Below, piece by piece: positions 21,831 through 42,948 of a stretch of 64,000 bases of DNA (position 1 is its first letter; every line of letters begins with the position of its first letter). The stretch is from Isoptericola halotolerans (lineage in GTDB: Bacteria > Actinomycetota > Actinomycetes > Actinomycetales > Cellulomonadaceae): the NCBI RefSeq assembly GCF_003003075.1, contig NZ_PVTX01000002.1, positions 124,001-188,000 of the forward strand, written 5' to 3'. The translations under genes and the position numbers were made by a program. The notes below the pieces were generated by a model. The model had not been told where the DNA came from and made no database searches. It was given only the letters and a program-made list of their open reading frames with translations.

Positions 21831-21845
21831 CGCGAGGAGCGGATC

Positions 21846-23354: not shown

Positions 23355-23382
23355 GTGGCACGAGCCGAACCGGAGGTCGCCG

Positions 23383-24574: not shown

Positions 24575-27500
24575 GTGACAGCACCGACGACGGCGCCACG
24601 GACCACCGAGCTCGACGCCGCTCCCGGATCCACGGTCGTCATCCGCGACGAGGAGTGGCTCGTCACGCAGGTGGAGCCGACGGCGGACGGCCACTTCGTT
24701 CATGTGGTCGGCCTCTCAGGCCTGGTCCGGGACACGGAGGCCGTGTTCTCCACCGCGATCGAAGACGTCGCCGTCGCGGACCCGGCCGACGCCGCCGTCG
24801 TGGCGGACGAGTCCCCGCGCTACCGCGAGTCCCGTCTCTGGCTGGAGGCGATGCTGCGCAAGACGCCGGTCCCGGTCACGGAGGACGCGCTGACGACGGC
24901 GCACCGCGCACTGGCCGACCCGCTGCCGTACCAGTTCGAGGCGGTGCGCAAGGCCCTCCACCCGGACAACCTGCGCCCCCGCATCCTGCTGGCTGACGCC
25001 GTCGGCCTGGGCAAGACGCTCGAGATCGGCATGATCCTCTCCGAGCTGGCCCGCCGGGGCCGTGGTGAGCGGATCCTGGTGGTGACGCCCAAGCACGTGC
25101 TGGAGCAGATGCAGTTCGAGCTGTGGACCCGCTTCGCGCTGCCGTTCGTGCGCCTCGACTCCACGGGCATCCAGCGCATCCGCCAGAAGCTCCCGGCGAA
25201 CCGCAACCCGTTCGCGTTCTTCAAGCGCGTCATCATCTCGATCGACACCCTCAAGAGCGACAAGTACGTGGCGCACCTGCGCCGTCACCGGTGGGACGCC
25301 GTCGTCATCGACGAGTCGCACAACGTCACGAACTCCTCGACCCAGAACTTCCGCCTCGCCTCGATGCTGGCCCGGCAGACGGACGCCATGGTCCTGGCCT
25401 CGGCCACGCCTCACAACGGCGACCCGCGGTCGTTCGCGGCGCTGGTCCGCATGCTCGAGCCGTCGGCAGTGAAGCCCGACGGCGTCGAGCTGGACGAGGA
25501 GCAGGTCAAGCGCCTCATCGTGCGCCGCCACCGGCACTCGCCCGAGGTCGCCTCGGTGGTGGGCGCGGACTGGGCGGAGCGCAAGGAGCCGCAGAACGTC
25601 CTGGTGACCCCTTCGCCGCTCGAGGAGGAGATCGCCGTCGAGCTGGAGGACATCTGGCTCTGGCCCACGCGCGGCACTTCCCCGTACTCGGGCCGCGGCG
25701 GTGCCACGCTGTTCCCCTGGACCCTCGCCAAGGCGTTCCTCTCGTCGCCCGCCGCGCTGGAGGAGTCCGTGCGCAAGCGCCTGCGCGCGCTCGACGCAGG
25801 CACCGAGACCTCCGACGACGACGAGTCGCTCGTCACGCCGGACGCAGCCGAAGGCGGCACCCCGGACGAGCGAGCCACCGCGGGCACCGGGACCCGTGCC
25901 ACCGAGCGCACCGCCCTGGCCCGCCTGCACGACCTCGCGGCCCGCTCGCTCACCGAGCGCTCGGCGAAGTACGACGCGCTGCGCGACCATCTACGCGGCA
26001 TCGGCGTCGGCAAGGGCTCCGACATGCGCGCGGTGGTCTTCGCCGAGCGCGTCGCGACGCTGGGCTGGCTGCAGGGCCGGCTGGTCACGGACCTCGGCCT
26101 CAAGCCGGAGAACGTGGCCGTGCTGCACGGCGGGCTCTCCGACGTCGACCAGCAGCGGATCGTCGAGTCCTTCAAGCTCGCCTCCTCCCCCATCCGCGTA
26201 CTCGTCACCGGCGACGTGGCGTCAGAGGGCGTGAACCTCCACAGCCACTGCCACCACCTGGTGCACTACGACATCCCGTGGTCCCTCATCCGGATCGAGC
26301 AGCGCAACGGCCGCATCGACCGGTACGGGCAGAAGAACGCGCCGCAGATCACGACGCTGCTGCTGGACCCGCAGCGCACGCGCCGGTTCGGCGGCGACCT
26401 GCGCGTCCTGACGCGCCTCGTCGAGCGTGAGCACCATGCCCACCACGCGCTCGGGGACACCGCCTCGCTCATGGGCCAGTACTCGGTGGCGGCCGAGGAG
26501 AAGTCGATCGCCGACGTCCTCCGCCAGGCTCGCTCCCTGGAGAGCGTCGTCAAGGAGGTCGAGGAGGTCGTGGCGGACGACGGCCCTGCCGGCCTGCTCG
26601 CCCGGCTCATGAACCTCGGCGCGAGCACCGAGGCACCGCCCGCACCAGCAGCGGCCCCCACCGGCGGACGCACCGGGGTGTACGACGATGACCTCGCGTT
26701 CCTCGAGGACGCCCTCACGCAGATCTACACCACACCCGGGCAGGAGCCCTCGAACGGTGTGGCGTGGAAGAAGGCCGCGAACGCCTCGGTCGCCTCTCTC
26801 AAGCCCCCGCGGGACCTGCGGCAGCGCCTCGAGGTGCTCCCGCAGTCCTACCTCGCGGACCGACGCGTCACCGAGGTGCTCCGGTTGGCGACGACGACGG
26901 CGCAGGGCACCCGCGAGCTCGCCAATGCCCGCAGCGCGGAGTCGACGTCGGTGTGGCCGGAGGCCCACTTCCTCGGCCCCCTGCACCCCGTCGTCGAGTG
27001 GGCGTCGGACCGGGCGCTCGCGTCGCTGGGCCGCAACCAGGTCTTCGCCGTCCGTGGCGACCTCGAGGAGTTGACGGTGCTCATCCAGGCCGCGCTGTAC
27101 AACGTGCGCGGGCAGGTGGTGGCGACGTCGTACCAGACGGTGGCGTTCCCGAACCTCGACAACCCGGGCTTCGCGCTCCCGCAGCCGCACGAGTCCGCCG
27201 CAGCGGCGATCGAGGCGCTGCACCTCGGTGCCACGAACAAGGGCGGCGTCGCCGGGGCATCGGGCCTCCAGCCGTACGTGCGCCAGGCCGTGCGCTCGGC
27301 GGAGAGCGCGGTGGGCGACCAGGTCACCTCGATCGAGTTCGCCGCGCAGCAGCGGGTCGAGGCCTGGTTGAAACGCAGTCAGCACTGGCGCATGGAGGCG
27401 ACCGCACTCATCAGCCGTGAGGTGGGGGCCGCCCGGACCGGCATCACGAACCGGCAGTCCGACATCGACGAGGAGTCGCGCCTGGCGCGCGAGATGCTGC

Positions 27501-27601
27501 CGGAGCGCACCCTGCTCCGCCCGCTGCTCGTCGTCGTCCCGCCCGGCCTCGACCTTCCCGAGCCGGAAGCCGAGCCGCACAGCACCGAGGAGAACAACTG
27601 A
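24575..27601 (+). CDS. SNF2-family DEAD/DEAH helicase, DrmD-like
   Basis: 1008 residues from a GTG with GAGAGG seven bases upstream. SNF2/RapA-type motifs are in order: Walker A ADAVGLGKT (140-148), DESH (246-249), LASATPHNG, and in the second RecA lobe motif V GDVASEGVNLHSHCHHLVHYD and motif VI RIEQRNGRIDRYGQ (573-586). The C-terminal 330 residues are helical and poorly characterised. In class 1 DISARM an SNF2-like helicase (DrmD) lies beside a large adenine methylase, exactly the adjacency seen here. The stop overlaps the methylase start by one base (TGATG), so both are translated as a unit. It is an ATP-driven DNA translocase, probably cytoplasmic and part of restriction. Confidence 0.85.
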   Translation: MTAPTTAPRTTELDAAPGSTVVIRDEEWLVTQVEPTADGHFVHVVGLSGLVRDTEAVFSTAIEDVAVADPADAAVVADESPRYRESRLWLEAMLRKTPVPVTEDALTTAHRALADPLPYQFEAVRKALHPDNLRPRILLADAVGLGKTLEIGMILSELARRGRGERILVVTPKHVLEQMQFELWTRFALPFVRLDSTGIQRIRQKLPANRNPFAFFKRVIISIDTLKSDKYVAHLRRHRWDAVVIDESHNVTNSSTQNFRLASMLARQTDAMVLASATPHNGDPRSFAALVRMLEPSAVKPDGVELDEEQVKRLIVRRHRHSPEVASVVGADWAERKEPQNVLVTPSPLEEEIAVELEDIWLWPTRGTSPYSGRGGATLFPWTLAKAFLSSPAALEESVRKRLRALDAGTETSDDDESLVTPDAAEGGTPDERATAGTGTRATERTALARLHDLAARSLTERSAKYDALRDHLRGIGVGKGSDMRAVVFAERVATLGWLQGRLVTDLGLKPENVAVLHGGLSDVDQQRIVESFKLASSPIRVLVTGDVASEGVNLHSHCHHLVHYDIPWSLIRIEQRNGRIDRYGQKNAPQITTLLLDPQRTRRFGGDLRVLTRLVEREHHAHHALGDTASLMGQYSVAAEEKSIADVLRQARSLESVVKEVEEVVADDGPAGLLARLMNLGASTEAPPAPAAAPTGGRTGVYDDDLAFLEDALTQIYTTPGQEPSNGVAWKKAANASVASLKPPRDLRQRLEVLPQSYLADRRVTEVLRLATTTAQGTRELANARSAESTSVWPEAHFLGPLHPVVEWASDRALASLGRNQVFAVRGDLEELTVLIQAALYNVRGQVVATSYQTVAFPNLDNPGFALPQPHESAAAAIEALHLGATNKGGVAGASGLQPYVRQAVRSAESAVGDQVTSIEFAAQQRVEAWLKRSQHWRMEATALISREVGAARTGITNRQSDIDEESRLAREMLPERTLLRPLLVVVPPGLDLPEPEAEPHSTEENN

Positions 27602-30600
27602 TGGCCGCCAGTGACGCGATCGTCGTCGGCGAGGACTGGATCAGCGAGCACTACTTCTCCACGGACGGCAAGCAGTCGTTCCAGGCGAAGGTCCTGGAAC
27701 GGCGCAAGGCATGGGACGACGGCGGCACGGACGCGCCGTCGACCCGCACGCGCTTCGTCGCGGCCCGGGCGGAATCGCTCTCGACGCTCGCCGGGCTCGG
27801 CGAGGAGGGCGGCCGGTTCGCCGTGCTGCCCGAGCTGTACGAGCGGCTGCGCGCCGTCCTTGGCTACACGACGGCGGCCCTGCAGGCCAAGCGCGAGGGC
27901 CCGGTCGAGTGGGTGCACGCGACGGGGCTGGAGGCGAAGGCACCGCTGGTGCTCGTCGAGGCGGTGGCGGTCAAGGACGTCGAGTCGCTGCTCGCCAAGG
28001 GCGACCCGGCCAAGCCCGCACGGGGTGACCGGACCCTGCTGGAGCCGTACCAGGCTGACGAGAAGACCCAGATCTACTCGGTGGCCCGGCTGCTCTCGCA
28101 CCTGTTCGTCCAGGACGAGGGGCCGGACTACGCGCTCGTGCTGGCTGGCGGCTGGCTGCTGGTGGCAGAGAAGGCCCGCTGGGCCGAGGGCCGGTACCTG
28201 GCCGTCGACCTGCAGCTCGTCGCCGAGCGCGCCGACGACAAGCGCGGTGGCGAGACCGACCGCGCGCTGACGTGCGTCGAGGCGGCCTCGCTCGCCCCGG
28301 ACCCCGAGGGCAACCTCTGGTGGCCCGGTGTGCTCGAGGAGTCGGTCAAGCACACCGTGGGCGTCTCGAAGGACCTGCGCGAGGGCGTGCGCCTGTCCAT
28401 CGAGATCATCGCCAACGAGGTGGTCCGCCGCCGTGCCGCCCAGGGGCTCGAGCCGCTGCCGCAGGCGGAGGCGCAGAACCTCGCGCGGCAGTCGTTGCGC
28501 TACCTGTACCGCGTGCTGTTCCTGCTGTACGCGGAGGCCTCCCCCGAGCTCGGCGTGCTGCCCGTCGGCGCGCCGGTCTACGAGCGCGGCTACAGCCTCG
28601 ACCGCCTGCGCGAGCTGACGCTGGTCGAGCTCCCCGGCCCGGCGGCCGAGCACGGCACGCACCTGTACGCCTCGCTCGGCACGCTGTTCCGCATGGTCGA
28701 CACGGGGCACGACGGCGGCGGCACCGGCCCCGAGGCGGGCGATGCCGGGCTGACCTTCACCCCGCTCAAGGCCGACCTGTTCCGACCGGAGGCGACGGCG
28801 CTGATCGACGCCGTCGGGCTCGGGAACGCGGCCCTGCAGCAGGTGCTGCGCCACCTGCTGCTAAGCAAGGAGTCGCGGGGCAAGGACCGCGGGTTCATCT
28901 CGTACGCCGAGCTCGGCATCAACCAGCTCGGCGCGGTGTACGAGGGCCTCATGAGTTACACGGGCTTCTTCGCCACGGAGGACCTGCACGAGGTCGCCAA
29001 GGACGGCAACGCCGAGAAGGGCTCCTGGGTGGTCCCGGTCGTGCGGTCACAGGGCATCGCCCCGAAGGACTTTGTGACGTTCGACGACCCGGTGACCGGC
29101 GAGCCGAAGCCCGTGGTGCACGAGCAGGGCACGTTCGTGTTCCGGCTCGCGGGGCGCGAGCGGCAGCAGTCGGCGTCGTACTACACGCCCGAGGTGCTGA
29201 CCCGGTTCACCGTCTCCCAAGCGCTCGTCGAGCTCATCGGGCCGGACGACCCGGACCCCGAGTCCGTGGAATGGAAGGGCCGTGAGATCCCGCGCAAGCT
29301 CTCGGCTCGCGAGATCCTCGACCTCACCGTCTGCGAGCCGGCCCTCGGGTCCGGCGCATTCGCCATCGAGGCGGTGCGCCAGCTCGCTGCTGCGTACCTC
29401 CGGCGCCGCCAGGCCGAGACCGGCGTGAAGATCGAGCCGGACGAGTACGCGCGCGAGCTGCAGAAGGTCAAGGCGTACATCGCCCTGCACAACGTGTACG
29501 GGGTGGACCTCAACGGCACCGCCGTGGAGCTCGCCGAGATCTCCCTGTGGCTCGACACCATGGGCAAGGGGCTTAGCGCCCCCTGGTTCGGCCTGCACCT
29601 GCGGCGCGGCAACTCCCTCATCGGCGCACGGCGGGCCGTGTACCGGCGCGACCAGCTCGCCAAGAAGGCGTGGCTCCAGTCCGTGCCCGCGGACGTCCCG
29701 CTCGCGCCGTCCGACGGCGATCGTGCGGCCGGGCGCACCAGCTCGCTCGGCGTCGTGGGCGGCCGGATCCACCACTTCCTGCTGCCCGCCGCAGGATGGG
29801 GCAGCGCCGTCGAGGCCAAGGAAGCCAAGGAGCTCGCCCCCGAGGCGCTCGCGCGGCTCAAGGCCTGGCGCAAGTCCGTGCTCGTCACTCCGTCGAAGAA
29901 GCAGGCCGACGAGCTGGTGAAGCTCGGCCACCGGGTCGAGGTGCTCTGGGACCTCGCGCACCGACGCCTCGAGATCGCCGAGCAGCAGATCCGGCGGTCG
30001 CTCGATGTCTGGGGCGCCGATGACCTGCCCGTCGGCGGCGAGGTGACCCGCGAGCAGATCGAGGCGGCGCTTGCCGATGCTCGGGGTGCTTACCGGCGGT
30101 TGCGGTTGGTGATGGACGCCTGGTGCGCGCTGTGGTTCTGGCCGCTGACGGAGGGGTTAACCCGGGTTAACCCCGCCGGGGACTCGGCTGAGGCCGGCGT
30201 CGTGGAGCCGCCGAACCTGGACGAGTGGACCGCCGGGCTCCGCGCTGTGCTCGGCGTCCACACCGAGACCGGTGCTACCGGTCACGGCAAGGCGTGGCGC
30301 GGTGGCGACCAGACGTTCGCCTCCACGGCGGACTGGGACCAGCTCAACGAGACCGAGGAACTTGAGCTCTCCTTCGCCGGCGCGGTCGCGCCCGAGCGGG
30401 TGCTGGCTGACCATCCGTGGCTACGCGTGTGCCAGCAGGTGGCCGAGCGGCAGGGCTTCTTCCACTGGGAGCTCGACTTCGCGCCGGTGTTCGCCGCGCG
30501 GGGCGGCTTCGACCTGCAAGTGGGCAACCCGCCGTGGGTGCGGCCGGACTTCGACGAGGCGGCGTCGCTCGCCGAGTACGAGATCGCCTTCGCGCTAGAG

Positions 30601-32517
30601 GGCAAGATCGCGACCGCCCGCGCCAACGAGCTGCGATCCACAACGCTCGCGAACGCGGCGGCGCGAGATTTCTACCTCGACTCGCTCATCGCCACGATCG
30701 GTACGCGCGAGGCGGCATCTAGCGTTCCCGACTTTCCGCACCTCGCGGGTCTCCGTCCCGATCTCTACCGCTGCTTCATGGAGCAGACCTGGCGTCACCA
30801 CTCGGCATCCGGGGCGGTCGGACTCATCCACCCGGAGACGCATTTCACGGACGAGAAGGCCGGACCGCTCCGAGGTGCGGCCTACGGACGCTTGCGTCGG
30901 CACTGGCAGTTCATCAACGAACTGCAGCTCTTCGAGATTCACCACCTCGTCAGCTACGGGATACACGTCTACGGTGCCGAGCGAACTCCTCACTTCCTCC
31001 AGGCGGCATCTCTCTATCACCCCGACACAGTCGACCGCTCGGCTATGCACGACGGCACCGGTGAGGAACCTGGCCTGAAGGACCCGGACGGCCGCTGGGA
31101 TGTGCGGCCGCACCGCGACCGAATCATCAGCGTCGACAAGACGGTGCTCAGCACCTGGCACGCCGTCCTGGAAAACGCGAACGTGCCGATGACCCAGACC
31201 CGCATGGTCTATGCGGTCAACCGCGCGACGATCTCGGTGCTCGACAAGGTCGCCGAGGCGCCGCGCATCGGATCGCTCGCCCTCGAGTTTTCCCAGGGCT
31301 GGAACGAGACCACGGACTTCAAGAAGGGCTACTTCGGGAAGGAGTGGGATATCGCGGACTCGTGGGGCGATGCCATCCTTCAAGGCCCCCACCTGCACGT
31401 GGCGAACCCCGCCTACAAGACGCCCAACGAGTCGATGAAGAGCAACCTCGACTGGTCGGTGGTCGACCTCGAGGAGCTCGCGCCTCGCGCGATCCCGGCG
31501 ACGTCGTACAAGCCGCGAGGCGACCGGGCTGCCTACGACGCGGCGTACACGCACTGGACCCGCGACGTCGTGCTCGGTCCGGACGGCAACCCCGTCGATG
31601 ACATCCCTGCGGTCGACCCGAAGTACATCTGCGACGTCGAGACCGCCACCCTCGCCGACGGCACCGCCGTCCGCACCGAAACCATCTCGTCAAGGGCATT
31701 TTATCGGATCGCCTGGCGGAAGATGGCTGCAAACACCGGTGAGCGAACCTTAATCCCGGCAATCATCCCGCGAGACTGTGCGCCCACACACGGCCTGACT
31801 TGCGTGGGTTCTCCGCGCGGCAGCCAACGTGATCTCGTCGTGTGTGCAGGGTCTCTGGCTTCGCTCCTCTCGGACTTCACGGTCCGTGTCGCACCCAAGG
31901 CCAACATCCTGATGTCGACGGTTTCAGCCCTGGCCGAGGTCGTTAGCGGCCCTTGGGGAATGGCGATCGCACTCCGTGCCCTACGCCTCAACTGCGTCAC
32001 CGATGCCTATGCCGATCTGTGGGCCGAGTGCTACGAATCGACGTTCCGAGAGGACTTGTGGACCGGTCTACCGGAGCGCACCGGCTGGGTCGACCTCGGC
32101 GATGTCGGGCCGGAGTGGACCCCGGACATGCCGCTGCGCCGGGCCGAGGACCGCCGTCAGGCGATGCTGGAGATCGACGCCCTGGTCGCCCTCTCCCTGG
32201 GCCTGACCGCCGACGAGCTGTGCACGATCTACCGCACCCAGTTCCCGGTGCTTTACGGCTACGACCGCAACCGCGACCACTACGACGCCAACGGCCGCAT
32301 CGTCCCCAACACCGTGCTGACCACGTGGCGCAAGCGCGGCGGCAACGACGGCCGCTACTCCGACGAGGACCTCACCGCCACCCACCCTGGCAGCGGCGTC
32401 GACTACTCCTACGAGCTCCCCTTCGAGACCCTCGACCGCGAGGCCCACATGCGCCAGGCCTATGCCGCCTTCGAGTCCCGCCTCGCTGGCTCGTCGACTG
32501 ACGAGGCGAAGGCATGA
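27601..32517 (+). CDS. Eco57I-type adenine-specific DNA methyltransferase, DrmMI-like (very large)
   Basis: 1638 residues. SAM-binding motif I is CEPALGSGAF (578-587), and the catalytic motif IV is NPPW (976-979) in LQVGNPPWVRPDF, so the spacing between them is unusually wide (about 390 residues). YYTPEVLTRFTVSQALVE just before motif I is typical of type IIG/Eco57I and BREX/DISARM-type N6-adenine methylases. The N-terminal 530 residues and the C-terminal 600 residues are probably target recognition and scaffolding. No clear PD-(D/E)xK nuclease motif was found, so it is more likely a self-marking methylase than a complete restriction enzyme. Rare TTA codons occur at 853 and 1384. A perfect 22-bp palindrome lies within the gene. 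It is translationally coupled to the helicase. Confidence 0.87.
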   Translation: MAASDAIVVGEDWISEHYFSTDGKQSFQAKVLERRKAWDDGGTDAPSTRTRFVAARAESLSTLAGLGEEGGRFAVLPELYERLRAVLGYTTAALQAKREGPVEWVHATGLEAKAPLVLVEAVAVKDVESLLAKGDPAKPARGDRTLLEPYQADEKTQIYSVARLLSHLFVQDEGPDYALVLAGGWLLVAEKARWAEGRYLAVDLQLVAERADDKRGGETDRALTCVEAASLAPDPEGNLWWPGVLEESVKHTVGVSKDLREGVRLSIEIIANEVVRRRAAQGLEPLPQAEAQNLARQSLRYLYRVLFLLYAEASPELGVLPVGAPVYERGYSLDRLRELTLVELPGPAAEHGTHLYASLGTLFRMVDTGHDGGGTGPEAGDAGLTFTPLKADLFRPEATALIDAVGLGNAALQQVLRHLLLSKESRGKDRGFISYAELGINQLGAVYEGLMSYTGFFATEDLHEVAKDGNAEKGSWVVPVVRSQGIAPKDFVTFDDPVTGEPKPVVHEQGTFVFRLAGRERQQSASYYTPEVLTRFTVSQALVELIGPDDPDPESVEWKGREIPRKLSAREILDLTVCEPALGSGAFAIEAVRQLAAAYLRRRQAETGVKIEPDEYARELQKVKAYIALHNVYGVDLNGTAVELAEISLWLDTMGKGLSAPWFGLHLRRGNSLIGARRAVYRRDQLAKKAWLQSVPADVPLAPSDGDRAAGRTSSLGVVGGRIHHFLLPAAGWGSAVEAKEAKELAPEALARLKAWRKSVLVTPSKKQADELVKLGHRVEVLWDLAHRRLEIAEQQIRRSLDVWGADDLPVGGEVTREQIEAALADARGAYRRLRLVMDAWCALWFWPLTEGLTRVNPAGDSAEAGVVEPPNLDEWTAGLRAVLGVHTETGATGHGKAWRGGDQTFASTADWDQLNETEELELSFAGAVAPERVLADHPWLRVCQQVAERQGFFHWELDFAPVFAARGGFDLQVGNPPWVRPDFDEAASLAEYEIAFALEGKIATARANELRSTTLANAAARDFYLDSLIATIGTREAASSVPDFPHLAGLRPDLYRCFMEQTWRHHSASGAVGLIHPETHFTDEKAGPLRGAAYGRLRRHWQFINELQLFEIHHLVSYGIHVYGAERTPHFLQAASLYHPDTVDRSAMHDGTGEEPGLKDPDGRWDVRPHRDRIISVDKTVLSTWHAVLENANVPMTQTRMVYAVNRATISVLDKVAEAPRIGSLALEFSQGWNETTDFKKGYFGKEWDIADSWGDAILQGPHLHVANPAYKTPNESMKSNLDWSVVDLEELAPRAIPATSYKPRGDRAAYDAAYTHWTRDVVLGPDGNPVDDIPAVDPKYICDVETATLADGTAVRTETISSRAFYRIAWRKMAANTGERTLIPAIIPRDCAPTHGLTCVGSPRGSQRDLVVCAGSLASLLSDFTVRVAPKANILMSTVSALAEVVSGPWGMAIALRALRLNCVTDAYADLWAECYESTFREDLWTGLPERTGWVDLGDVGPEWTPDMPLRRAEDRRQAMLEIDALVALSLGLTADELCTIYRTQFPVLYGYDRNRDHYDANGRIVPNTVLTTWRKRGGNDGRYSDEDLTATHPGSGVDYSYELPFETLDREAHMRQAYAAFESRLAGSSTDEAKA
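30153..30174. repeat. Perfect 22-bp palindrome inside the methylase gene
   Basis: GGGGTTAACCC at 30153-30163 is followed directly by GGGTTAACCCC at 30164-30174, two HpaI-type GTTAAC cores 11 bp apart. It encodes GLTRVNP and includes a rare TTA leucine codon (30157). Coding need alone would not require it. Confidence 0.85.
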
Positions 32518-32554
32518 GCCGCCCGAAACTCCTGATGACGGCGGCGGCATCTAT

Positions 32555-32572
32555 CTCCGATGATGGTCGGAG
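32555..32572 (+). terminator. Small hairpin in the 100-bp gap before the helicase-nuclease-Lsr2 gene
   Basis: CTCCGA (32555-32560) pairs with TCGGAG (32567-32572) around a six-base loop. It could be a weak attenuator or only chance. It is the one symmetric element in the gap, which otherwise carries the GAAGGA ribosome site (32605-32610) of the next gene. Confidence 0.25.
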
Positions 32573-32617
32573 AGCGAATCACTCGAGCACGATGAGAACA
32601 GCACGAAGGACATACCC

Positions 32618-35600
32618 GTGAGCCAGACGAACACTGACGCGCACTACCGGGTGGTCGATCAGAGTTCCCGCCTGTTGGCCTACCTGTCAGCCGTCGCGCG
32701 TGAGGTCGGCCCTGCGCCCGTCCGGGACGTGCGACATCACGAGTTCACCCTCTGGCCGGCCGACGTACCGTCCCACCGCGCGGTCCTGGCGGGGCCGACG
32801 CAGGAGCGACTCTCGTGGCTGCAGGTGAAGCGCGTTCCTCAACCTGCGCAGGTGACGGTTCCCGAGGACCTCCAGCCACTCCTGGACGCCAGGTCGATCG
32901 CTGAACCAACGGACCAGCCACGACTTCGACCCGAAGCTGTCGACGCATGGCTCCGCGCGCAGGTCCCGGACCCGGACGAGGAAGCGCAGCTCGACGCAGA
33001 TGCCCAGGAACCGGAAGCGCGGCCCGACCTTGAAGCCGAGGACGAGGACGAGCCCGCCACCGAAGTCCCCGACGTCGACGAGCAGCGGGCGATCCTCCGA
33101 GAAGAGCTCGACGAGAAGTTCTCTGCATGGCTCTCGACCACGTGGCAGAACTGGGTCGCGGTCGTCACACCAGACCTCGCCGCACGAGCCCTCTACGGCA
33201 AGCTCTACGGCCTCCACCTGCGTGCCGAGGCGGAGCAGGACCAGTACGAGGTGGTCTGGGGCCACTCAGTCATCTCCTACCGAGGAGAAGGGGTCGGCGT
33301 CGTCGCACCGTTGCTGACCGCTCCGGTCGTCGTCGAGATGGACGACAACGACGGCTCGATCCGGGTCACGCCAGAACGTACCGTCGAGCTGGAGCTCGAT
33401 GCCCTCGAGGGCACCGGCCTCAGCGGCTTCGAAGGGCTCGTCGCCCTCCGTGCCAAGGTGCAGGAGACTCCGCCGGACCCTTGGTCTCCTGAAGAGATCG
33501 CTGGTGTCCGGGGACAGATCGTCTTTCCTCTCGGTCAGGACGCGACGCTCAGTAGCAGCACCGATCCTGCGCCCGCCACAGGCAAGCCGGTCCTCAACGA
33601 GGGCTGGGTCCTGATGCTTCGCAAACGCCCACTACGTCAGGAGCGGTTCTACGACGAGCTCTCCGACAAGCTTCGCGAGACAGAGCGGGTGCCGGACGCT
33701 CTGGCATCCGTCGTCGCCGACAAGGACATCGTCGATCATGCGCTGCGCGCCCTCGGGCACGACGTCGACACCGATGACGGCACGGCCCGCCGTCTGCTCA
33801 TGCCGCTGCCGACGAACGAGGACCAGGAACGGATCGCGCGCCAGCTCTCGCACTCACGCGGTGTGACCGTGCAGGGCCCGCCCGGAACCGGCAAGTCGCA
33901 CACGATCGTCAACCTTCTCTCGCACCTCGTGGCGCAGGGCAAGCGCGTACTGGTGACGGCCCAGAACGATCAAGCCCTGCGGGTGCTGCGGGACAAGATC
34001 CCCGAACAGCTTCGTGACCTCTCCGTCGCCGTCCTCGGATCGACACCCGCCGCCATGGAGGACCTCCGCAGCTCAGCCCAATCCATGCAGGACTCCCTCT
34101 CGTCGATCGACCCGCGGCGCGAGGAGAAGCGGATCTCCGAGCTGGGCGACAAGATCGACCAGGTTCGCGAGAACCTGCGCCGAACGGACCTGGCACTCAT
34201 CGAGGCCCTACGCAGCGAGCAGCGCGAGTACCCGCTTCCCGCCGGGCCCGTGCGCGCGCCCCAGCTTGCCGAGTGGGTCACCTCGCGGCGCGGCATCGAC
34301 GTGATCCCCGACCGGGTGCCGGCGCAGTCGCGCATCCCGCTCAACCCGGACGAGCTGATCGAGCTGCAGGACCTCGCCCAGACGATCGACCCTGGGGACG
34401 CCGAGCGCGCGGGTCTCGACCTACCGGACGAGAACTGGTTGCCCGCAGGCGCTCAGCTGCGTCAGCTCTTCGACCGTATCGACGAGCTCCAGACGACGGT
34501 CACGTCCCTCGAATCCGGTGGTCTGCGCATCGAAGCCGTCGACCGCCTGAGCCACTCGGCCCTCGAAGCCACCGCTCAGTCTGCGCGCCAGGAGGCGCAG
34601 GCGCTCGAGACCTTGGGCGGGGACTGGGAGACACGACTTGCTCAGGGGATCCTCCACGGCAACCCGGCGGTGGCCTTCACGATTGAGCACAACCACGCCG
34701 TGGGTGCGAAGCTCGCCGAGGCGCGCGCCATGAAGTCACAGACCGCAGGACACGAGATCGAGGTCCCTGACGGGGACCCTCACATCCAGCTTCCCCTCCT
34801 CCGGCAGTGGTCCGAACGGCTCGCCGCCGGAAAGAAGCTCCCTCTGGTCGGCGCACGGGACCTCAAGGAGCTCAGCAACCAGGTCAAGGTCAGCGGATAC
34901 CCCGTGAGAACAGCCCAACAGGTCGATCTCGTCGCCTGGGCTGTTCGCCTCCGCGCCATGCTGGTCGAGGTGCGGCGACTCATGGCCAGCGCCTACGAAC
35001 CCTTCAACATCCCCCTCCCCGACCAGGGGACGGCCTTCCAGTTCGAAGCAGAGCAGCTCGCGCAACGCGTGGTGTCCGTCCACCGGTGGTGGAGCTCCGT
35101 CCATCCAGGACTGGCCGGGACGCTCGCCCCGCTGACGTCCTTTGCCGATCCGGCGGGTTCGGTGCAGTCGTTGCAGCGAACAGGGGAACTCCTGTCGTCG
35201 GCGGCAGCGCGCCTGGAAGAGCGCGAGCTCAGCGCTCGACTCCACCAGCTGGCGGTCGACCTTGACCAGCGCTCCACCCAGGAGAAGTCCTCGGAGCTCT
35301 GGGGAGCCCTCGGATCAGCTCTAGCGGCCAGAGAGCCGGGCCGCTGGGAACAAGTTCAGGCCGAATCGAGCAGGCTCCTGACAGTCCGCCCTCGCGTCCA
35401 CCGCCGCGCCGAGCTCCTCACCCGCCTGGCGGATGCTGGAGCACCCTTGTGGGCCCGCTCGATCCTCGCCTCCGCCGGTGACACCTCCGTCGTCGGCGAC
35501 CCGCATGATGCCGCCTCGGCCTGGACCGTCGCTGCCGCAAGATCATGGTTGACGACCCTGCACAGCGAGTCGGACGTCTCGCGCCTGATGGAACGCGCTC

Positions 35601-37789
35601 ACGAGGAGGCCGCCGACCTCCGCCTGCTCATCATTGATCTCGCCAGCAGGTCAGCGCGGCTCCGCCTCATGCAGAACACCAAGGACCGCCAGCGCAAGGC
35701 GCTCGGCACGTGGCTCGAGGCCACCCGCCGCGCCGGCAAAGGTACGGGGAAGAACGCGCCACGATTCCTCGCCCAGGCCCGGGCAGCGCTGCCCGAGGCT
35801 ATGGGCTCGGTTCCGGTCTGGATCATGCCGATCTATCGCGTGCTGGAGAACTTCGACCCCAGGGTCTCCGAACCGTTCGACGTCGTCATCGTCGACGAGT
35901 CGTCCCAGTGCGACCTGCTCTCCCTGGGAGTGCTCGCGCTCGGTGAGAAGTCCGTCGTCGTCGGCGACGACAAGCAGACCTCGCCCCAGGCTGTGGGCGT
36001 GAAGACCGACCGCATCTTCGACCTGCAGAGCCAGTTCATCGCGGACCTGCACGACAAGTCGCTGCTCACGATGGACGAGTCCCTCTACTCCATCTCCGGC
36101 CGCGCCTTCCCGTCCACGATCCTCCTGCGTGAGCACTTCCGCTGCGTGCCGGAGATCATCTCGTTCTCCAACCGCTACTACAACGGCAAGGTGCTGCCCC
36201 TGCGTGAGGTCACCGTTCCGCAGATCGGTGGGCCCCTCCGGGCCGTCCACGTGGCTGACGGAGCGTCCGTGCGCACCGGCTCGCACCGGACCAACCGAAG
36301 AGAGGCCGAAGTCCTGGTCGAGCAGATCGCCGAGTGCTCCGCCGACCCGCACTACGACGGCCTCACGTTCGGCGTCGTAACGATGATGAGCGGTCCACAG
36401 GCTCAGATCATCGAGAGCATGCTGGTCGAGCGCCTCGGCACAGAAGAGTACGAGCGTCGGCACCTACGGGTCGGCAACCCTCCGGTGTTCCAGGGCGACG
36501 AACGCAACATCGTCTTCATCTCGGTCGTCGCCGACGACGACTCCTTCGCCGCCACACGGACGATGCACGAGCAGTGGGCAAACGTCGCAGCGTCACGAGC
36601 CCAGGACCAGCTGTGGGTCTTCTACAGCGTCGACCCGTCGACGCTCAACCACAACGATCAACGGCGCCACCTCGTCGAGCACGTACGGGACGCGGGACGG
36701 CGTGTCGACCCGACCGACCTGTACGAGCTCACCGAGTCAAAGTTCGAGCGTGACGTCCTCGCTCAGATGCTCGAACGGGGCTATGACGTCGCTCCTCAGC
36801 ACAAGGTCGGCGCCTACCGCATCGACTTCATGGTGACCGTCGGCGAGGGGGAACGGCTCGCCGTCGAGTGCGACGGCGACTCGTTCCACGGCCCCGACAA
36901 GTGGGACGAGGACGTTCGACGCCAACGAGTGCTCGAGCGACTCGGCTGGAGCTTCTGGCGGGTTCGGGCCTCTGCCTACTACCTCGACCCCGATGCTGCC
37001 ATGCAGCCCCTCTGGGAGCGTCTCGACGGGATGAAGGAGCGCGCCGTGGAGAACGAGGAGCGGCGCCGTGCTCAGGACGCGAAGCGCGCGGCCGAACGAC
37101 TTGCTCAGCTGGAACGCGAGGCAGAGCAGGCAGCCGAATCTGCTCCGACCAAGCGGAGCGACAGTGAAGATGTCGCCGCGGCAGAGGATCCGAAGAGTCC
37201 GAACTCCGAGGAACCACACAACATCGCAGTGGCATCCGCTGCGCCCTCTCGTAGCCCGAGCGCTCGCACGTCCTCGGCGTCGGCCGAGGTGCCGCCATCC
37301 GTCATCCGACAGTGGGCACGCGCGAACGGGGTCGCCGTCGGTGACCGTGGTCGCCTCTCTCCGGAGGTCCGGCGAGCTTACGACGAGGCCCACGCCCGGC
37401 GATCGGAACAGGTTTCTACGGAGGCCCAGGAGCCCCTCGCCCTTCCCGACAACTCGGTGGCACAGAGAACGGCACCCGACCTTGCGGCAACGACTCCCCC
37501 GTCGCTCGCCGAGATCGAGAACGCCTGGCACACCGGTCAGCGCTACCAGCTCGACTACACGGGTTCCGTACGCCCCCGGGACGGTGGCGTGGACCTTGAG
37601 TCGGCGATCGGTGAGGTCGCCGCACGCCCTGTCATCGAGGCTATGCGACGCGCACGGCCCAGCGGCGGCACGTTCAAGATCGACGACTCGGGCATTCTCG
37701 TCACGTACCAGGACAGAGTCCCCGCGTTCGTGATGCGCGTGGCACCCGAAAACTGGTTCCCCGGCCACTTGCGGTCAGCGCAACGATGA
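32618..37789 (+). CDS. SF1 helicase fused to Vsr/MTES_1575-type nuclease and Lsr2-type DNA-binding motif
   Basis: 1723 residues. After an N-terminal acidic, Asp/Glu-rich stretch (about 115-160), the SF1 ATPase core has Walker A GPPGTGKS (420-427), Walker B DESSQ (D1093, E1094), GDDKQTSPQ, EHFRCVPEIISFSNRYYN and NVAASRAQDQLW. The two halves are separated by about 650 residues of mainly helical insert. A nuclease domain follows (about 1372-1460) with E1377, D1403 in YRIDFMV and E1417-C-D1419 in AVECDGDSFH, the MTES_1575/Vsr fold. After a charged linker, residues 1560-1593 (IRQWARANGVAVGDRGRLSPE) copy the C-terminal DNA-binding motif of Lsr2, including the AT-hook-like RGR at 1577-1579. About 130 further residues are unassigned. 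It probably acts in the cytoplasm as a sensor and cutter of AT-rich foreign DNA. Confidence 0.85.
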   Translation: MSQTNTDAHYRVVDQSSRLLAYLSAVAREVGPAPVRDVRHHEFTLWPADVPSHRAVLAGPTQERLSWLQVKRVPQPAQVTVPEDLQPLLDARSIAEPTDQPRLRPEAVDAWLRAQVPDPDEEAQLDADAQEPEARPDLEAEDEDEPATEVPDVDEQRAILREELDEKFSAWLSTTWQNWVAVVTPDLAARALYGKLYGLHLRAEAEQDQYEVVWGHSVISYRGEGVGVVAPLLTAPVVVEMDDNDGSIRVTPERTVELELDALEGTGLSGFEGLVALRAKVQETPPDPWSPEEIAGVRGQIVFPLGQDATLSSSTDPAPATGKPVLNEGWVLMLRKRPLRQERFYDELSDKLRETERVPDALASVVADKDIVDHALRALGHDVDTDDGTARRLLMPLPTNEDQERIARQLSHSRGVTVQGPPGTGKSHTIVNLLSHLVAQGKRVLVTAQNDQALRVLRDKIPEQLRDLSVAVLGSTPAAMEDLRSSAQSMQDSLSSIDPRREEKRISELGDKIDQVRENLRRTDLALIEALRSEQREYPLPAGPVRAPQLAEWVTSRRGIDVIPDRVPAQSRIPLNPDELIELQDLAQTIDPGDAERAGLDLPDENWLPAGAQLRQLFDRIDELQTTVTSLESGGLRIEAVDRLSHSALEATAQSARQEAQALETLGGDWETRLAQGILHGNPAVAFTIEHNHAVGAKLAEARAMKSQTAGHEIEVPDGDPHIQLPLLRQWSERLAAGKKLPLVGARDLKELSNQVKVSGYPVRTAQQVDLVAWAVRLRAMLVEVRRLMASAYEPFNIPLPDQGTAFQFEAEQLAQRVVSVHRWWSSVHPGLAGTLAPLTSFADPAGSVQSLQRTGELLSSAAARLEERELSARLHQLAVDLDQRSTQEKSSELWGALGSALAAREPGRWEQVQAESSRLLTVRPRVHRRAELLTRLADAGAPLWARSILASAGDTSVVGDPHDAASAWTVAAARSWLTTLHSESDVSRLMERAHEEAADLRLLIIDLASRSARLRLMQNTKDRQRKALGTWLEATRRAGKGTGKNAPRFLAQARAALPEAMGSVPVWIMPIYRVLENFDPRVSEPFDVVIVDESSQCDLLSLGVLALGEKSVVVGDDKQTSPQAVGVKTDRIFDLQSQFIADLHDKSLLTMDESLYSISGRAFPSTILLREHFRCVPEIISFSNRYYNGKVLPLREVTVPQIGGPLRAVHVADGASVRTGSHRTNRREAEVLVEQIAECSADPHYDGLTFGVVTMMSGPQAQIIESMLVERLGTEEYERRHLRVGNPPVFQGDERNIVFISVVADDDSFAATRTMHEQWANVAASRAQDQLWVFYSVDPSTLNHNDQRRHLVEHVRDAGRRVDPTDLYELTESKFERDVLAQMLERGYDVAPQHKVGAYRIDFMVTVGEGERLAVECDGDSFHGPDKWDEDVRRQRVLERLGWSFWRVRASAYYLDPDAAMQPLWERLDGMKERAVENEERRRAQDAKRAAERLAQLEREAEQAAESAPTKRSDSEDVAAAEDPKSPNSEEPHNIAVASAAPSRSPSARTSSASAEVPPSVIRQWARANGVAVGDRGRLSPEVRRAYDEAHARRSEQVSTEAQEPLALPDNSVAQRTAPDLAATTPPSLAEIENAWHTGQRYQLDYTGSVRPRDGGVDLESAIGEVAARPVIEAMRRARPSGGTFKIDDSGILVTYQDRVPAFVMRVAPENWFPGHLRSAQR

Positions 37790-37799
37790 AGGAGCAGCG

Positions 37800-40058
37800 A
37801 TGAAGGCAGACGCTCTTACCCCGCGCCAGCTGTTCGACGGGAAGATGCACTACGAGATCCCGTCGTTCCAGCGCCCCTACGTCTGGAACGAGGAGGACCA
37901 GTGGGCGCCGCTGTGGGAGGACATCCTCCGCGTAGCGGTGAGCTACATCCCGCCCGCGTCCGGGGCCGCGGTCGACCCGGAGCGACACTTCCTCGGCGCG
38001 ATCGTCTACGAGTCGCGGCCGCCCGTCGTCGGCGACGTCACCCGTCACCTCGTGATCGACGGCCAGCAGCGCACCACGACGCTCCAGCTCGTCATCGACG
38101 CCGTGCAGTCCGCCATCTCGACGCGTGAACACGAGACGCTCGCCGAAGACCTCGAAGACCTCGCCCTGAACAAGTCCGCGGCATTCCGCGGCAAGCCCGA
38201 GCGCTTCAAGCTCTGGCCGTCCCGCCAGGACCGCGTCGCGTTCGAGCAGGCCATGGACGACAGTCAGCCGTCCGACGGCGAGCACCGAGTGCTCGAGGCC
38301 CACCGATTCTTCAGCGGCGAGGCCAGTGCGTGGCTCGAGGGCAAGCCCGACGAGGACGGCAATCTCCCACCCGGCACCGAGGAGCAACGCGCCTGGGCCT
38401 TGACTTCGACCCTGCAGGACGGCCTCTACGTCGTCGCGATCAACCTCACCGGGCATGACGACTCCCAGCTCATCTTCGAAACCCTCAACGACCGCGGCAC
38501 ACCCCTGCTCAAGGCCGACCTCATCAAGAACTGGGTCTACAAGGTCGGCACCGACGTCGGGGCTGACGTCGACAAGTGGCCCGACACCCACTGGGTCGAC
38601 TTCGACGACGAGTGGTGGCGCGCGGAGATCACCCAGGGACGGCAGATGCGGTCCCGCATCGACATCTTCCTGCAGTACTGGCTCACCATGCGGATGCAGA
38701 ACGAGGTGAAGACCGAGCAGGTCTTCCGCACCTTCACCCAGTACGCCAAGCCGCACATGGCGGATGCGACAGGCGCAGAGGAGTTCCTCGGTGCGATGCG
38801 ACGCGACGCCGACACCTACCGGCAGCTCACGCAGCTCGATCCGACCTCGCCCGAGGGCTCCTTCCACTCGCGCGTCGTGGAGACGATGGAGCTCGCGGCC
38901 ACCAGTCCGCTCCTGCTGTGGTTCGTCTCCGAGAACCATGAGGTCCCCGCCTCGCAGGTCGCCGTAGGGCTCAACGCGCTGGAGAGCTGGGTCATCCGTC
39001 GCACCCTCGCCCGCGCCACCATGAAGGGCGTCAACCAGCTCATGGTCGCCATCCTGAAGGTCGTGGCCGACGCGCCCGTGGACACTGCTGGTGACGCCGT
39101 TCGCGACTACCTCGCCAGGCAGTCTGCGGACGCCCGGTACTGGCCGACAGACGAGCAGATGCACGCCGTGCTGCCCGGCCTCCGCCTCTACGGCAACATC
39201 CGGCAGTCGCGCATCGCCGAGGTCCTGTGGGCCATCGAGACGAGCCTGCGGACCAAGTTCAACGAGGACCTTCCCCAGCCGCCGAAGCTCCAGGTGGAGC
39301 ACGTCATGCCGCAGGGCTGGCGCACCCACTGGGACGATGAACCACCCCTCGACCCCGAAGCGGCCGCGAATCGCGACCAGCTCGTCAACACCCTGGGAAA
39401 CCTCACCCTCGTCACCCAGCCGCTCAATGGGTCCCTCTCCCACCGGCCGTGGACCGATGACGAGGCGACCGGAATAAAGTCCGGAGGCATGGCCGGGCGC
39501 GGCAAGCGCGGCCTCCTGGAGGAGTTCGCCCTGCTCGTTCTCACCAAGCAGATCGTCACCCCGCACCCTCACGCCTGGACCGACGACGACATCCGTACCA
39601 GGTCGTCCGTGCTCACCGAGGCGATCTGCGGCGTCTGGCCAGGACCGCCTCCCGTCGAGCCCGACCTCGAATTGCAAGAAGGCCACTCGGAGATCCCGTC
39701 CACCTCCGAGTCGTCAGGGCACGCCGAGGTTCCGTGGACCGCCGACGAGCTCATCGACCTCTCCGGCAGGCTCGCCCCGACCACGCTCGCCGTCCTGGAC
39801 CACGTCGCCACCGAGCACGCCGGGGACTTGCTCCGCGGCACCGACTTCGCCCCGATGGACCTCACCTCGTCGCAGATCGCCGGAGTCTCCGGCGCGCTGG
39901 CACGGATGGTCTACACCCGCTACGAGCGGTCCAACCCGCCGCTCGGCTTTGTCAACGTCGGTGGGCAGTGGCACTACCGCATGGAGACCGCCGTCGCCGA
40001 AACGTGGCAGCGCGTGCGCGAGTGTCACGCCGCTCAAGAGGACGCGGTCGATCGATGA
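37800..40058 (+). CDS. GmrSD-type protein: DUF262 plus DUF1524 (HNH-like), single chain
   Basis: 752 residues, starting ten bases after the helicase-nuclease stop with AGGAG between, so it belongs to the same operon. The DUF262 (GmrS-like) domain has SFQRPYVW (22-29) and DGQQR (D87-R91), linked in the family to nucleotide hydrolysis. The DUF1524 (GmrD-like) nuclease domain has VEHVMPQ (499-505) and N...LGNLTLVTQPLN (about 530-542), an HNH-like His-Asn site. The C-terminal 130 residues form a winged-helix-like domain ending VNVGGQWHYRME. Single-chain GmrSD/BrxU proteins are type IV restriction factors that cut glucosylated or otherwise modified phage DNA. Placed in this array, it would cover phages that evade base-specific restriction. 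Confidence 0.87.
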   Translation: MKADALTPRQLFDGKMHYEIPSFQRPYVWNEEDQWAPLWEDILRVAVSYIPPASGAAVDPERHFLGAIVYESRPPVVGDVTRHLVIDGQQRTTTLQLVIDAVQSAISTREHETLAEDLEDLALNKSAAFRGKPERFKLWPSRQDRVAFEQAMDDSQPSDGEHRVLEAHRFFSGEASAWLEGKPDEDGNLPPGTEEQRAWALTSTLQDGLYVVAINLTGHDDSQLIFETLNDRGTPLLKADLIKNWVYKVGTDVGADVDKWPDTHWVDFDDEWWRAEITQGRQMRSRIDIFLQYWLTMRMQNEVKTEQVFRTFTQYAKPHMADATGAEEFLGAMRRDADTYRQLTQLDPTSPEGSFHSRVVETMELAATSPLLLWFVSENHEVPASQVAVGLNALESWVIRRTLARATMKGVNQLMVAILKVVADAPVDTAGDAVRDYLARQSADARYWPTDEQMHAVLPGLRLYGNIRQSRIAEVLWAIETSLRTKFNEDLPQPPKLQVEHVMPQGWRTHWDDEPPLDPEAAANRDQLVNTLGNLTLVTQPLNGSLSHRPWTDDEATGIKSGGMAGRGKRGLLEEFALLVLTKQIVTPHPHAWTDDDIRTRSSVLTEAICGVWPGPPPVEPDLELQEGHSEIPSTSESSGHAEVPWTADELIDLSGRLAPTTLAVLDHVATEHAGDLLRGTDFAPMDLTSSQIAGVSGALARMVYTRYERSNPPLGFVNVGGQWHYRMETAVAETWQRVRECHAAQEDAVDR

Positions 40059-40241
40059 AGTCGTTGTAGCTACTGCTACCTACCAACCTCCTGTGCTGCT
40101 GCGGGCAGTGGCGCGAGCAGCCCGCCCGGTCTGATCCGAAGGACTTCACCCGGCACGAAACACTCATAACACCCCAATCGCCCTCGGATGCAGATAGCGT
40201 CCTCGCTGTTCACAGCGCTAGGAACGAGAGGGAGCGGGCGA

Positions 40242-40910
40242 GTGAAGATCGGCGTCGGGGGCAGCATCGGCCCATTGCGTGGGGGAGTCAGCAACCGTGG
40301 CGCAGGGATCGGTGTCGGCCCGTTCAGCGTCGCCGCATCCAACCGCGACATGCAGGGTTTCGTCGTCTTCCTCGTCGGCGCCGCCCTCGTAGGAGCGGTC
40401 GCTGTCGGCCCGTACTTCCTCGGCAAGTGGGTTGCGGGGCTCTGCGGCGCAGCGCCGGACTCGACGGCACGGTTCGTCACGGGCTGGATCTTCGAGGGCG
40501 TCTACCTCGCCGTGATCGCGCTGGTGCTCACCGTCCTGTTCACCCAGGCCGTCGCGCGGGTCGTCGTGGCTGCCGTCGGGGTCTGGCTCGCGCCCTTCGC
40601 GACGGGAGGCCACCTCCGCCTCGCGAGCGTCGACGACGACTTCTGGATCGTCGCACTTCTCGTGGTGCTCTTGGCCGTCGGCATGAACTTCTTCACGCTC
40701 GGCGCCGTAATCAGGGTGGAGGGCGCCCTACCGCTGGCACTCGTCTCTCTCTTTCTGAACAGCTTCCTTCTCTACTGCGTCGAAGCATCGACGGCACCGG
40801 ACGGATCCGCTTGGGACGCGGGGAGGTTCGGCTGGGTCGTTCTGGTCGCGGCATTGATCGCAGTCGGCCAGGCATTGGCCTCAGCAGCGATCGCCCACCT
40901 GCAGGAGTAG
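40242..40910 (+). CDS. Multi-pass membrane protein with DUF4236-like N-terminus
   Basis: 222 residues from the GTG at 40242, chosen for the AGGGAG just upstream; an upstream ATG at 40188 is in frame but lacks a ribosome site. The first 30 residues, KIGVGGSIGPLRGGVSNRG followed by AGIGVGPFSVA, have the glycine-rich pattern of DUF4236 (a GPxRxxxxxRGxGxxVG run). Five or six hydrophobic helices follow (for example FVVFLVGAALVGAVAVGPYFL, YLAVIALVLTVLFTQAVA and WIVALLVVLLAVGMNFFTLGAVI). I cannot assign a biochemical role. Its place inside a defence array makes a membrane effector or anchor possible. The gap from GmrSD is 183 bases. Confidence 0.6.
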   Translation: MKIGVGGSIGPLRGGVSNRGAGIGVGPFSVAASNRDMQGFVVFLVGAALVGAVAVGPYFLGKWVAGLCGAAPDSTARFVTGWIFEGVYLAVIALVLTVLFTQAVARVVVAAVGVWLAPFATGGHLRLASVDDDFWIVALLVVLLAVGMNFFTLGAVIRVEGALPLALVSLFLNSFLLYCVEASTAPDGSAWDAGRFGWVVLVAALIAVGQALASAAIAHLQE

Positions 40911-41558
40911 CGGAGGGCGGTCCGATCTCCCGCGGGACTGCACTCGGCAGGGGCAGCTATGGCCAACGTGATGCGCGACTGCGATGTCGCCGGGTTGGAA
41001 GAGACCGCGAGGAGGTCGTGAGTGCGAACGCAACGCTGGAGTCGCAGCCAGGCCGTGAGCGCGGCGTCACTGGCCGTCGCCGCATGGTCGTCGCCTGGCA
41101 GGACCCGCGACCCGTCGCGTCGTCCCCGTCGAGATGCGGTCACGCCGGGAGCATCCGGTGCTCCTTCCTCGTTCACGGAACGCGCCACGTCGCGGCGAGG
41201 CGATGGTCCGTCAAGGCGTGGCGCATTCCGTCGCACCCGATCAGCTCTCCACGCTCGCCAGAGGTCAGGAGCTTCGGCTTGAGCCCACGAACCCGTGGAG
41301 CCCGGAAGCCGTACTCGTGACGTAAAGGTCCGGGTCCAGGAGTTGAACGGCCCTGACGCTCCCTCCCACAGCTCGGGCTCGCGGAGCTGTCGGCCGGCGG
41401 CGTCGCTCTCTGGCCGCGTGCTCGGGCGGAGCTCGTCTCCCTCGTCCCGCCGGTGGCGGGCAAGAGCCTCAGCCTGCCGATGGCCATGGACATCACGGAA
41501 GCCGACATCGCCCGCCCGGCCGACGGGTAGGCCACTTCCCCGAACCGCTGCGAAACTC
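40911..41558. other. Gene-poor stretch between the two halves of the array
   Basis: 648 bases without an intact gene. Both strands contain frames without good starts. Two pieces of plausible coding sequence in different frames are described separately as a decayed gene. No tRNA, mobile element or repeat was recognised. Confidence 0.6.
41134..41530 (+). pseudogene. Possible decayed gene with HIRAN-like fragment
   Basis: The frame 41134-41325 ends APDQLSTLARGQELRLEPTN and then PWSPEAVLVT, which resembles a piece of a HIRAN DNA-binding domain (L..GxxVxLxxEPxNPxDPxAVxV). After its stop, a second frame (about 41358-41530) reads QLGLAELSAGGVALWPRARA and then ELVSLVPPVAGKSLSLPMAM, ending in a stop at 41530, with coding-like GC bias. 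The two pieces lie in the same direction but in different frames, as expected of a frameshifted relic. The HIRAN match is by eye and short. Confidence 0.3.
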
Positions 41559-42776
41559 TCATGCGGCGCGAGAAGGCCTGGCAAACTTGACGTAGTACCT
41601 GAGCACCTGCTGAGCCGTCGGCCCGTATTCCTTCCACGCCTTCTCGACGTCGTCGAGGTTCACCTTCTTGGTGTGGACGGCCTCGCAGAGCCGCATCCAG
41701 GACTGCCCGGTGACGTAAGTGATGGCGCCGGCGACCGCCGCGTTGATGAGCGACCCGATGCCGGGTACGAGTTTAACGAGACTCCGTGCCGTCGCCCTGC
41801 CTGCGTACTGGATTCCCAGCTGCGACAGCGCTTGCGCCGACAGCATGACCTTGAAGTCGATCCGGTAGGCGGCGGCGACCTTACCCATCATGGTCAGCTG
41901 GATGGGTGCGAGTGCCACCGCGTCGGCGAAAGGGATCGGGGTCGCCGCGATCCCCATGGCGGAGGCGGCCGCCGCGTTGATGTATCGGAGCGCCAGTTCG
42001 CGCCTGAGAGGGAGGGAAAGTTCCTGGACGACCCGGAGCGCGTCCTGGTTCTCCTCAGGTGCGGTCGCCAGTGTCAGTGCGAGCAGGTCTTCGAGGCCGT
42101 GCCTCGGGCCGCCGAACTTTCCCTGGTCGACGGCAGCGGTCATGACGGCTCCGGCGACGGGGAGGTCGATCGGGTCACCGTTCTCGTCACGAGGGTCCTG
42201 GAGGAACTCGAGCATCTCCACTGCTTGGCCGGACGGGACCCACGGACCCGCGATGCGATCCTTGGCACGCTGCACCTTGGTGAGCACGAGGATGACGTGC
42301 AACCCCTGGGCCGCGAACGTCCTGATGAGGCGGACGTCGTTCTCGGTCAGGCGGCCGGACGACGCGAGGATGCAGTACCAGACCACCGCGATCTGCTGCT
42401 CGCGCGGACCTGCGGCGATCTTGCTCAGCCCGTCGGAGACATGCTGTTCAGGCGTCTTGACCGAGCCCGCCTCGAACCCCTCGAAGTCCCAGATGCCGAG
42501 CGATCCGTCGGGGTTCAGGTGGTAGTCGATCCCCTTGGTCACGGGCATCCCCACGCCGGTGGGCGCGCTGTCTTTGCCGAAGATCGCGTTGATCAGGGAG
42601 GACTTGCCGACACCGGTGCCGCCGACGACCGCCAGGTTGAACCGGCCGATCTTGGCGCGCTGCTCGCGCTCCGCGTCGATGATCGGGGTCGGGTCGAAGC
42701 CGCGGTCCTCGCCCTCGCTCCCTGGCTGTCCGGGGGTTCCACCCTGCCGTCGGCGCCCCTGATCGGTCCGGCTCAT
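41559..42776 (-). CDS. Dynamin/Era-like GTPase with DUF697-type C-terminal region
   Basis: 405 residues. The GTPase has G1 GGTGVGKSS (52-60), G3 WDFEGFE (96-102) and a G4-like LTKVQ (165-169) in which the usual Asp is Gln, so base specificity may be relaxed. The C-terminal 150 residues contain AAAASAMGIAATPIPFADAVALAPIQLTMMGKVAAAY, the helical DUF697/YcjF-type membrane-associating pair, and a second hydrophobic segment (LINAAVAGAITYVTG). It is read opposite to all other genes of the array and has a strong AGAGGAG site. Similar GTPases sense stress or form membrane assemblies. A role in abortive infection is possible here, or the gene may be a later insertion. Confidence 0.82.
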   Translation of the reverse strand: MSRTDQGRRRQGGTPGQPGSEGEDRGFDPTPIIDAEREQRAKIGRFNLAVVGGTGVGKSSLINAIFGKDSAPTGVGMPVTKGIDYHLNPDGSLGIWDFEGFEAGSVKTPEQHVSDGLSKIAAGPREQQIAVVWYCILASSGRLTENDVRLIRTFAAQGLHVILVLTKVQRAKDRIAGPWVPSGQAVEMLEFLQDPRDENGDPIDLPVAGAVMTAAVDQGKFGGPRHGLEDLLALTLATAPEENQDALRVVQELSLPLRRELALRYINAAAASAMGIAATPIPFADAVALAPIQLTMMGKVAAAYRIDFKVMLSAQALSQLGIQYAGRATARSLVKLVPGIGSLINAAVAGAITYVTGQSWMRLCEAVHTKKVNLDDVEKAWKEYGPTAQQVLRYYVKFARPSRAA

Positions 42777-42948
42777 CTCACAGCTCCTCTTGGTATGTCG
42801 AGGCGACGATAGCGGGCTGACGCGGCCTCGGTCCGGTCGCGAAGGTCAAGTTCACCCGCAACCGATCAGGTGTGCCGGCGGGTGAAGTCTTGGCCTCCCA
42901 CCCACCCGGACGTGGGGAATCGCCCGGGGAGTCTGAAACGATACGCAC

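Follow-up and report, generated by a model that had tools for sequence, protein, structure and literature searches.

The locus described here raises the question of why a helicase-nuclease of a 73% GC actinomycete, Isoptericola halotolerans, should carry the DNA-binding module of Lsr2, and whether this module could direct the enzyme to foreign DNA. All positions refer to the window, that is, the whole stretch of 64,000 nucleotides that was analysed, and all genes and domains of the window given with coordinates in the form start..stop lie on the forward strand (+).

The helicase-nuclease and its Lsr2 module

The first-pass annotation had read one polypeptide combining an SF1 helicase, a Vsr-type nuclease and an Lsr2 motif, and Pfam, motif scans and fold comparison bore this out. 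The gene (32618..37789) is a single unbroken frame starting with GTG at 32618 and stopping at 37789; it encodes 1723 aa, and orthologues of the same architecture exist. Pfam and the motif scan placed helicase domain 1A (AAA_11) at residues 400-522 (33815..34183), with the Walker A motif GPPGTGKS at residue 420, and domain 2A (AAA_12, E = 1.9e-11) at residues 1165-1335 (36110..36622). The motifs VDESSQ (1092), GDDKQ (1116), LREHFR (1170) and NVAASRA (1322) are likewise intact, and the helicase is UPF1-like. The MTES_1575 Vsr-like endonuclease domain follows at residues 1376-1469 (36743..37024; Pfam E = 3.5e-31), an assignment to which Foldseek and orthologue identity also point, and its residues SKFE (1374), RIDF (1401) and ECDGD (1417) are intact according to the motif scan. 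Among Vsr-like folds, its model matched I-Bth0305I and NGO0050, which we take to be members of this fold group. Thus AAA_11, AAA_12 and MTES_1575 are all above cut-off with their motifs intact, as in SF1 helicase-nucleases of the MTES_1575 type. In the AlphaFold model, a long helix (residues 1458-1507, 36989..37138) leads from the nuclease into a disordered linker.

The Lsr2 DNA-binding domain lies at residues 1561-1591 (37298..37390), where PF23359 (Lsr2_DNA-bd) scored 43.2 bits (E = 2.5e-11, Pfam) against a curated cut-off of 26.9 bits, and the AT-hook-like RGR motif occupies residues 1577-1579 (37346..37354). Together with its conservation in orthologues, this places the C-terminal module of Lsr2, RGR included, where residues 1560-1593 had been proposed to hold it. 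When the isolated segment was compared with PDB sequences, only Lsr2 structures were found (2kng, 6qkp and 6qkq; E = 0.0014-0.0024). AlphaFold predicted two helices (model residues 201-210 and 223-239) with RGR in the loop between them. The model of residues 1545-1723 matched 2kng, the solved Lsr2 C-domain, with a Foldseek probability of 0.96 and an rmsd of 0.8 Å over 36 columns at 42% identity; by itself, the Foldseek E-value of 1.2 does not reach significance, which is usual for a domain of this small size. The profile and structure checks proposed in the first-pass annotation therefore came out in its favour, since the Lsr2 and MTES_1575 models both match significantly and the tail and nuclease models fit 2kng and Vsr-like folds, respectively.

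Behind the module, AlphaFold predicted a C-terminal alpha/beta domain (residues 1630-1707, 37505..37738; pLDDT about 90) that matched nothing in Pfam or among plasmids and had no convincing counterpart by fold. It was seen solely behind the Lsr2 module of the helicase-nuclease.

Conservation and descent of the module

A scan of one genome per species for 84,980 species, combined with a family-level search, gave five orthologues with the module, from Oerskovia (cut by the contig end), Promicromonospora, Microbacterium (two) and Gulosibacter, with 51-71% identity over the aligned length. Of 150 other genomes of the host family, 2 had clear orthologues, and the congeners searched had none; the distribution of this accessory gene is patchy. 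The mean pairwise identity was 80% in the nuclease, 50% in the Lsr2 core and 47% in the C-terminal domain, compared with 18-20% in the linkers flanking the core. In the module, the R, W and A of R-x-W-A, a G, RGR and one further A are invariant in all six sequences. Conservation of the core with RGR and RxWA between diverged linkers indicates that the module is maintained by selection, and dN/dS of the segment was about 0.25-0.35 where it could be estimated, with synonymous sites near saturation. One Microbacterium orthologue ends directly behind the module and has no alpha/beta domain; the two tail domains are therefore separable.

Among relatives that lack the module, the nearest is a Bifidobacteriaceae protein whose tail is of another kind, and homologues on plasmids of Variovorax, Streptomyces, Tsukamurella and a Fusobacteria bacterium end soon after the nuclease. 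No relative of the whole protein was found in phage records. On the tree, the Lsr2 bearers group together (support 84/94), with a single change in 87% of the bootstrap trees. This favours one acquisition of the module, with remoter relatives devoid of it, though the fork is not beyond doubt. Apparent Lsr2 matches in helicases of two genomes (G102 and G115) run through a stop and are not Lsr2 domains.

A/T runs and the use of the module on other enzymes

In Lsr2 itself, RGR inserts into the minor groove of A/T sequence and guanine blocks its entry (PMC6212790). A count of runs of at least 6 A/T over 17 stretches of 20 kb (340 kb sampled) gave 0.21 runs per 10 kb in the host; A/T runs are nearly absent from the sampled chromosome, which is the precondition for the AT-based discrimination that had been suggested for this high-GC host. 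A tether that seeks AT would thus have few places to bind on the chromosome. Two mycobacteriophages, which infect Mycobacterium and not the Isoptericola host, had 2.5 and 16.5 such runs per 10 kb. A 71% GC plasmid from a related family had 0.4, almost as few as the host, and thus GC-rich invaders would escape. This scarcity is a necessary condition only, with which AT-directed discrimination is possible.

Our main reading, to which we give a probability of about one half, is that the protein is a single-gene defence helicase-nuclease tethered to incoming DNA by its Lsr2 module according to AT content. The UPF1-like SF1 helicase would engage DNA and the Vsr-like domain would cut it, while the module, on a flexible tether, would dock its RGR in the narrow AT-rich minor groove and thereby keep the enzyme attached to DNA in which A/T runs are frequent. 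With such runs almost absent from the sampled chromosome of the 73% GC host but found in phage DNA of lower GC, tethering would draw the enzyme preferentially to incoming DNA. We infer that the module binds DNA and prefers AT in this protein too, and that the enzyme cleaves DNA, upon some trigger, and acts against phages. A lone module per chain may bind short AT tracts weakly because the oligomerisation domain, the source of Lsr2 avidity, is absent, and host Lsr2 would be a competitor at these sites; both points count against the AT-directed role.

AT-directed cutting of invaders is also weakened by the occurrence of the module on other enzymes. When long frames were sought at the Lsr2-domain matches listed for 79 and for 84 actinomycete genomes, 24 loci had the module on a protein of no recognisable silencer character. 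These were seven ERCC4 nucleases (L073, L076, L093, L101, L102, L105 and L107), six DEDDh exonuclease proteins, several with BRCT (L074, L089, L092, L094, L096 and L097), three SbcC-like AAA_27 ATPases (L065, L066 and L103), two NAD-dependent DNA ligases (LigA; L090 and L091), one RmuC (L100), one D12 adenine methylase (L075), one SGL protein and three of no assigned type; part of the loci were grouped by blastp to a Pfam-scanned member, and start codons were assigned mechanically, which affects the lengths and not the domains. On the nucleases, exonucleases, ATPases, ligases, RmuC and methylase, the module sits at or near the C-terminus; 18 of the 24 fusions have RGR, versus all six helicase-nuclease sequences. 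For most of these enzymes, no discrimination of foreign DNA is known. The survey suggests that the module recurs as an addition to DNA enzymes of actinobacteria, and from these sequences it looks like a portable DNA-tethering module that is not dedicated to foreign DNA.

L099, L104 and L106 have long low-complexity linkers, no other Pfam match and a C-terminal Lsr2 module with RGP in place of RGR. The DEDDh-BRCT-Lsr2 protein at L074:249-1886 strongly matched the PADLOC candidate PDC-S48 (E = 3.3e-129). A tyrosine recombinase at L079:242-1810 has a weak Lsr2-like segment with TGR adjoining its catalytic domain (E = 2.7e-4, below cut-off). Candidates such as L084, L088 and L077 were rejected as fusions, since an ordinary Lsr2 N-terminal domain precedes the module and the upstream extension is unrecognisable. 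The PADLOC MTase_II model PDLC03328 has an Lsr2-like tail as well; as a source of more fusions it was rejected, with one relative in 198 genomes that matched outside the tail.

Because the ligase, RmuC and the exonucleases are repair or processing enzymes, a serious rival, and one that we hold quite possible, is that the module tethers its enzyme to any DNA, or to ends or forks, without useful discrimination of self and foreign, and that the helicase recognises the target. The range of enzymes bearing it at or near the C-terminus favours this explanation, as do the other helicase-nucleases, in which nothing or a different tail occupies this position, with DUF3320-type winged helices in the named member (PMC3710099). 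The published Ku-Lsr2 fusion of mycobacteriophages Omega and Corndog points the same way, having a C-terminal Lsr2 domain with RGR on a DNA enzyme (PMC8612146). It is, however, a phage Ku end-binding protein linked to genome circularisation and not a helicase-nuclease, and the contribution of the module was not investigated in the published work (PMC8612146). Against a general tether, RGR is kept in all six helicase-nucleases and in most of the other fusions, and a host nearly free of A/T runs would offer few chromosomal tether sites at the normal preference of Lsr2. No report of Lsr2 fused to a helicase or nuclease was found in the open-access literature, where Ku-Lsr2 was the only published fusion of the module.

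An improbable explanation is that the enzyme guards Lsr2, sharing the sites of the host protein through its module and acting where Lsr2 is displaced or relocated, for example in phage replication zones. In mycobacteria, Lsr2 departs from the foci of host replication and marks zones in which phage DNA is replicated (PMC10066036). The Isoptericola host encodes a single canonical Lsr2, whose domain is similar, but such relocation upon infection is known from Mycobacterium only.

Gene neighbourhood and known defence systems

The gene lies in a variable defence island between conserved flanks (20101..59888), in place of which a congener (G021) has about 6 kb. It is preceded by a DrmD-like SNF2 helicase (24575..27601; PADLOC E = 4.6e-97) and a type IIG-like or DrmMI-like adenine methyltransferase (27601..32517; Pfam and PADLOC), and followed by a GmrSD-type nuclease (37800..40058; Pfam). 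The shared strand and tight spacing (10 bp to GmrSD) would suit a four-gene system. In another congener (G094), however, the three neighbours are present at 89-95% DNA identity and the helicase-nuclease is absent; three short genes (TM2, DUF2510 and OGG-like) fill the slot instead, with breakpoints near the gene borders. None of the five orthologues has the DrmD-like, methyltransferase or GmrSD gene beside it. Their neighbours differ in every case, and some lie near defence genes, either Wadjet JetC or a type IIG enzyme with a Mokosh-like helicase. The different slot cargo and the unshared neighbours thus mark the helicase-nuclease as an exchangeable single-gene unit, and we infer from the gene neighbourhoods that it is independent of the operon; a four-gene system is disfavoured by the same evidence and appears very unlikely. 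Nor does the gene form a DISARM system with the DrmD-like and DrmMI-like neighbours on this evidence, the helicase-nuclease and the drm genes not being fixed to each other.

The cargo slot between the methyltransferase and GmrSD genes spans 32518-37799 in the window and L110:16674-18838 in the congener. Near the helicase-nuclease, at 41559-42776, is an IIGP/dynamin-like GTPase with DUF697, two homologues of which directly adjoin the Promicromonospora orthologue (L047:11182-13477). A DEAD/MZB helicase of 2174 aa, with a UvrD-like helicase and a NOV_C protein behind it (42949-52799), is possibly a separate defence unit, and the left end of the island holds an AAA_14/DUF4143 ATPase, a Fic protein and an HNH_2 endonuclease (20386-24372).

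Profiles of PDC-S37, Mokosh MkoC, Hhe and ProA matched the protein. The matches to Hhe, ProA and PDC-S37, which are single-gene anti-phage proteins or candidates, are significant across helicase and nuclease. The score for ProA (210.6 bits) is, however, far below its equivalog cut-off of 1500, that for Hhe is 135.4 bits against 2000, DUF4011 of Hhe is absent here according to Pfam, and the Lsr2 module is extra relative to all three. Matches to Mokosh are partial and cover the helicase region only, in place of a full-length MkoA/MkoB or MkoC. To judge from the profile matches and the island, an anti-phage or anti-plasmid function is likely. Proteins of the MTES_1575 type (PF18741) share the SF1 helicase followed, after the helicase core, by a Vsr-like nuclease (PMC3710099). 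In the described member, HEPN, transglutaminase and two winged helices (DUF3320) are present as well (PMC3710099), whereas the tail here consists of the Lsr2 module and the alpha/beta domain and has no DUF3320 match. The helicase-nuclease is an MTES_1575 protein whose tail bears the Lsr2 minor-groove module in place of the winged helices of the named member.

The module shares two helices, the RGR loop and RxWA with the Lsr2 C-terminal domain (2kng; PF23359) at about 42-50% identity. It differs from Lsr2 in being placed on a helicase-nuclease between disordered linkers, and the N-terminal dimerisation/oligomerisation domain had no Pfam match in the 1723 aa, so that the protein does not qualify as a xenogeneic silencer. 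A chance or non-functional resemblance, conceivable for a motif of merely about 31 residues, is ruled out at the sequence level by the profile E-value, the fold match and the conservation in six sequences between diverged linkers.

For gene silencing by H-NS and Lsr2, it is established that self and foreign DNA are told apart by their base composition; for DNA cleavage we know of no such case, and none was found in the literature searched. Tentatively, actinomycetes may have repeatedly fitted the minor-groove module of Lsr2 to enzymes that cut or join DNA, and in the helicase-nuclease it may serve as a sequence-independent discriminator that directs DNA destruction by AT content, not by methylation or a recognition sequence. 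The protein lets cleavage directed by base composition be probed through a single mutation of RGR. The survey in turn suggests that DNA enzymes of actinobacteria use the module more widely than is generally noticed, which would alter the reading of 'Lsr2 family protein' annotations and of the biology of Lsr2.
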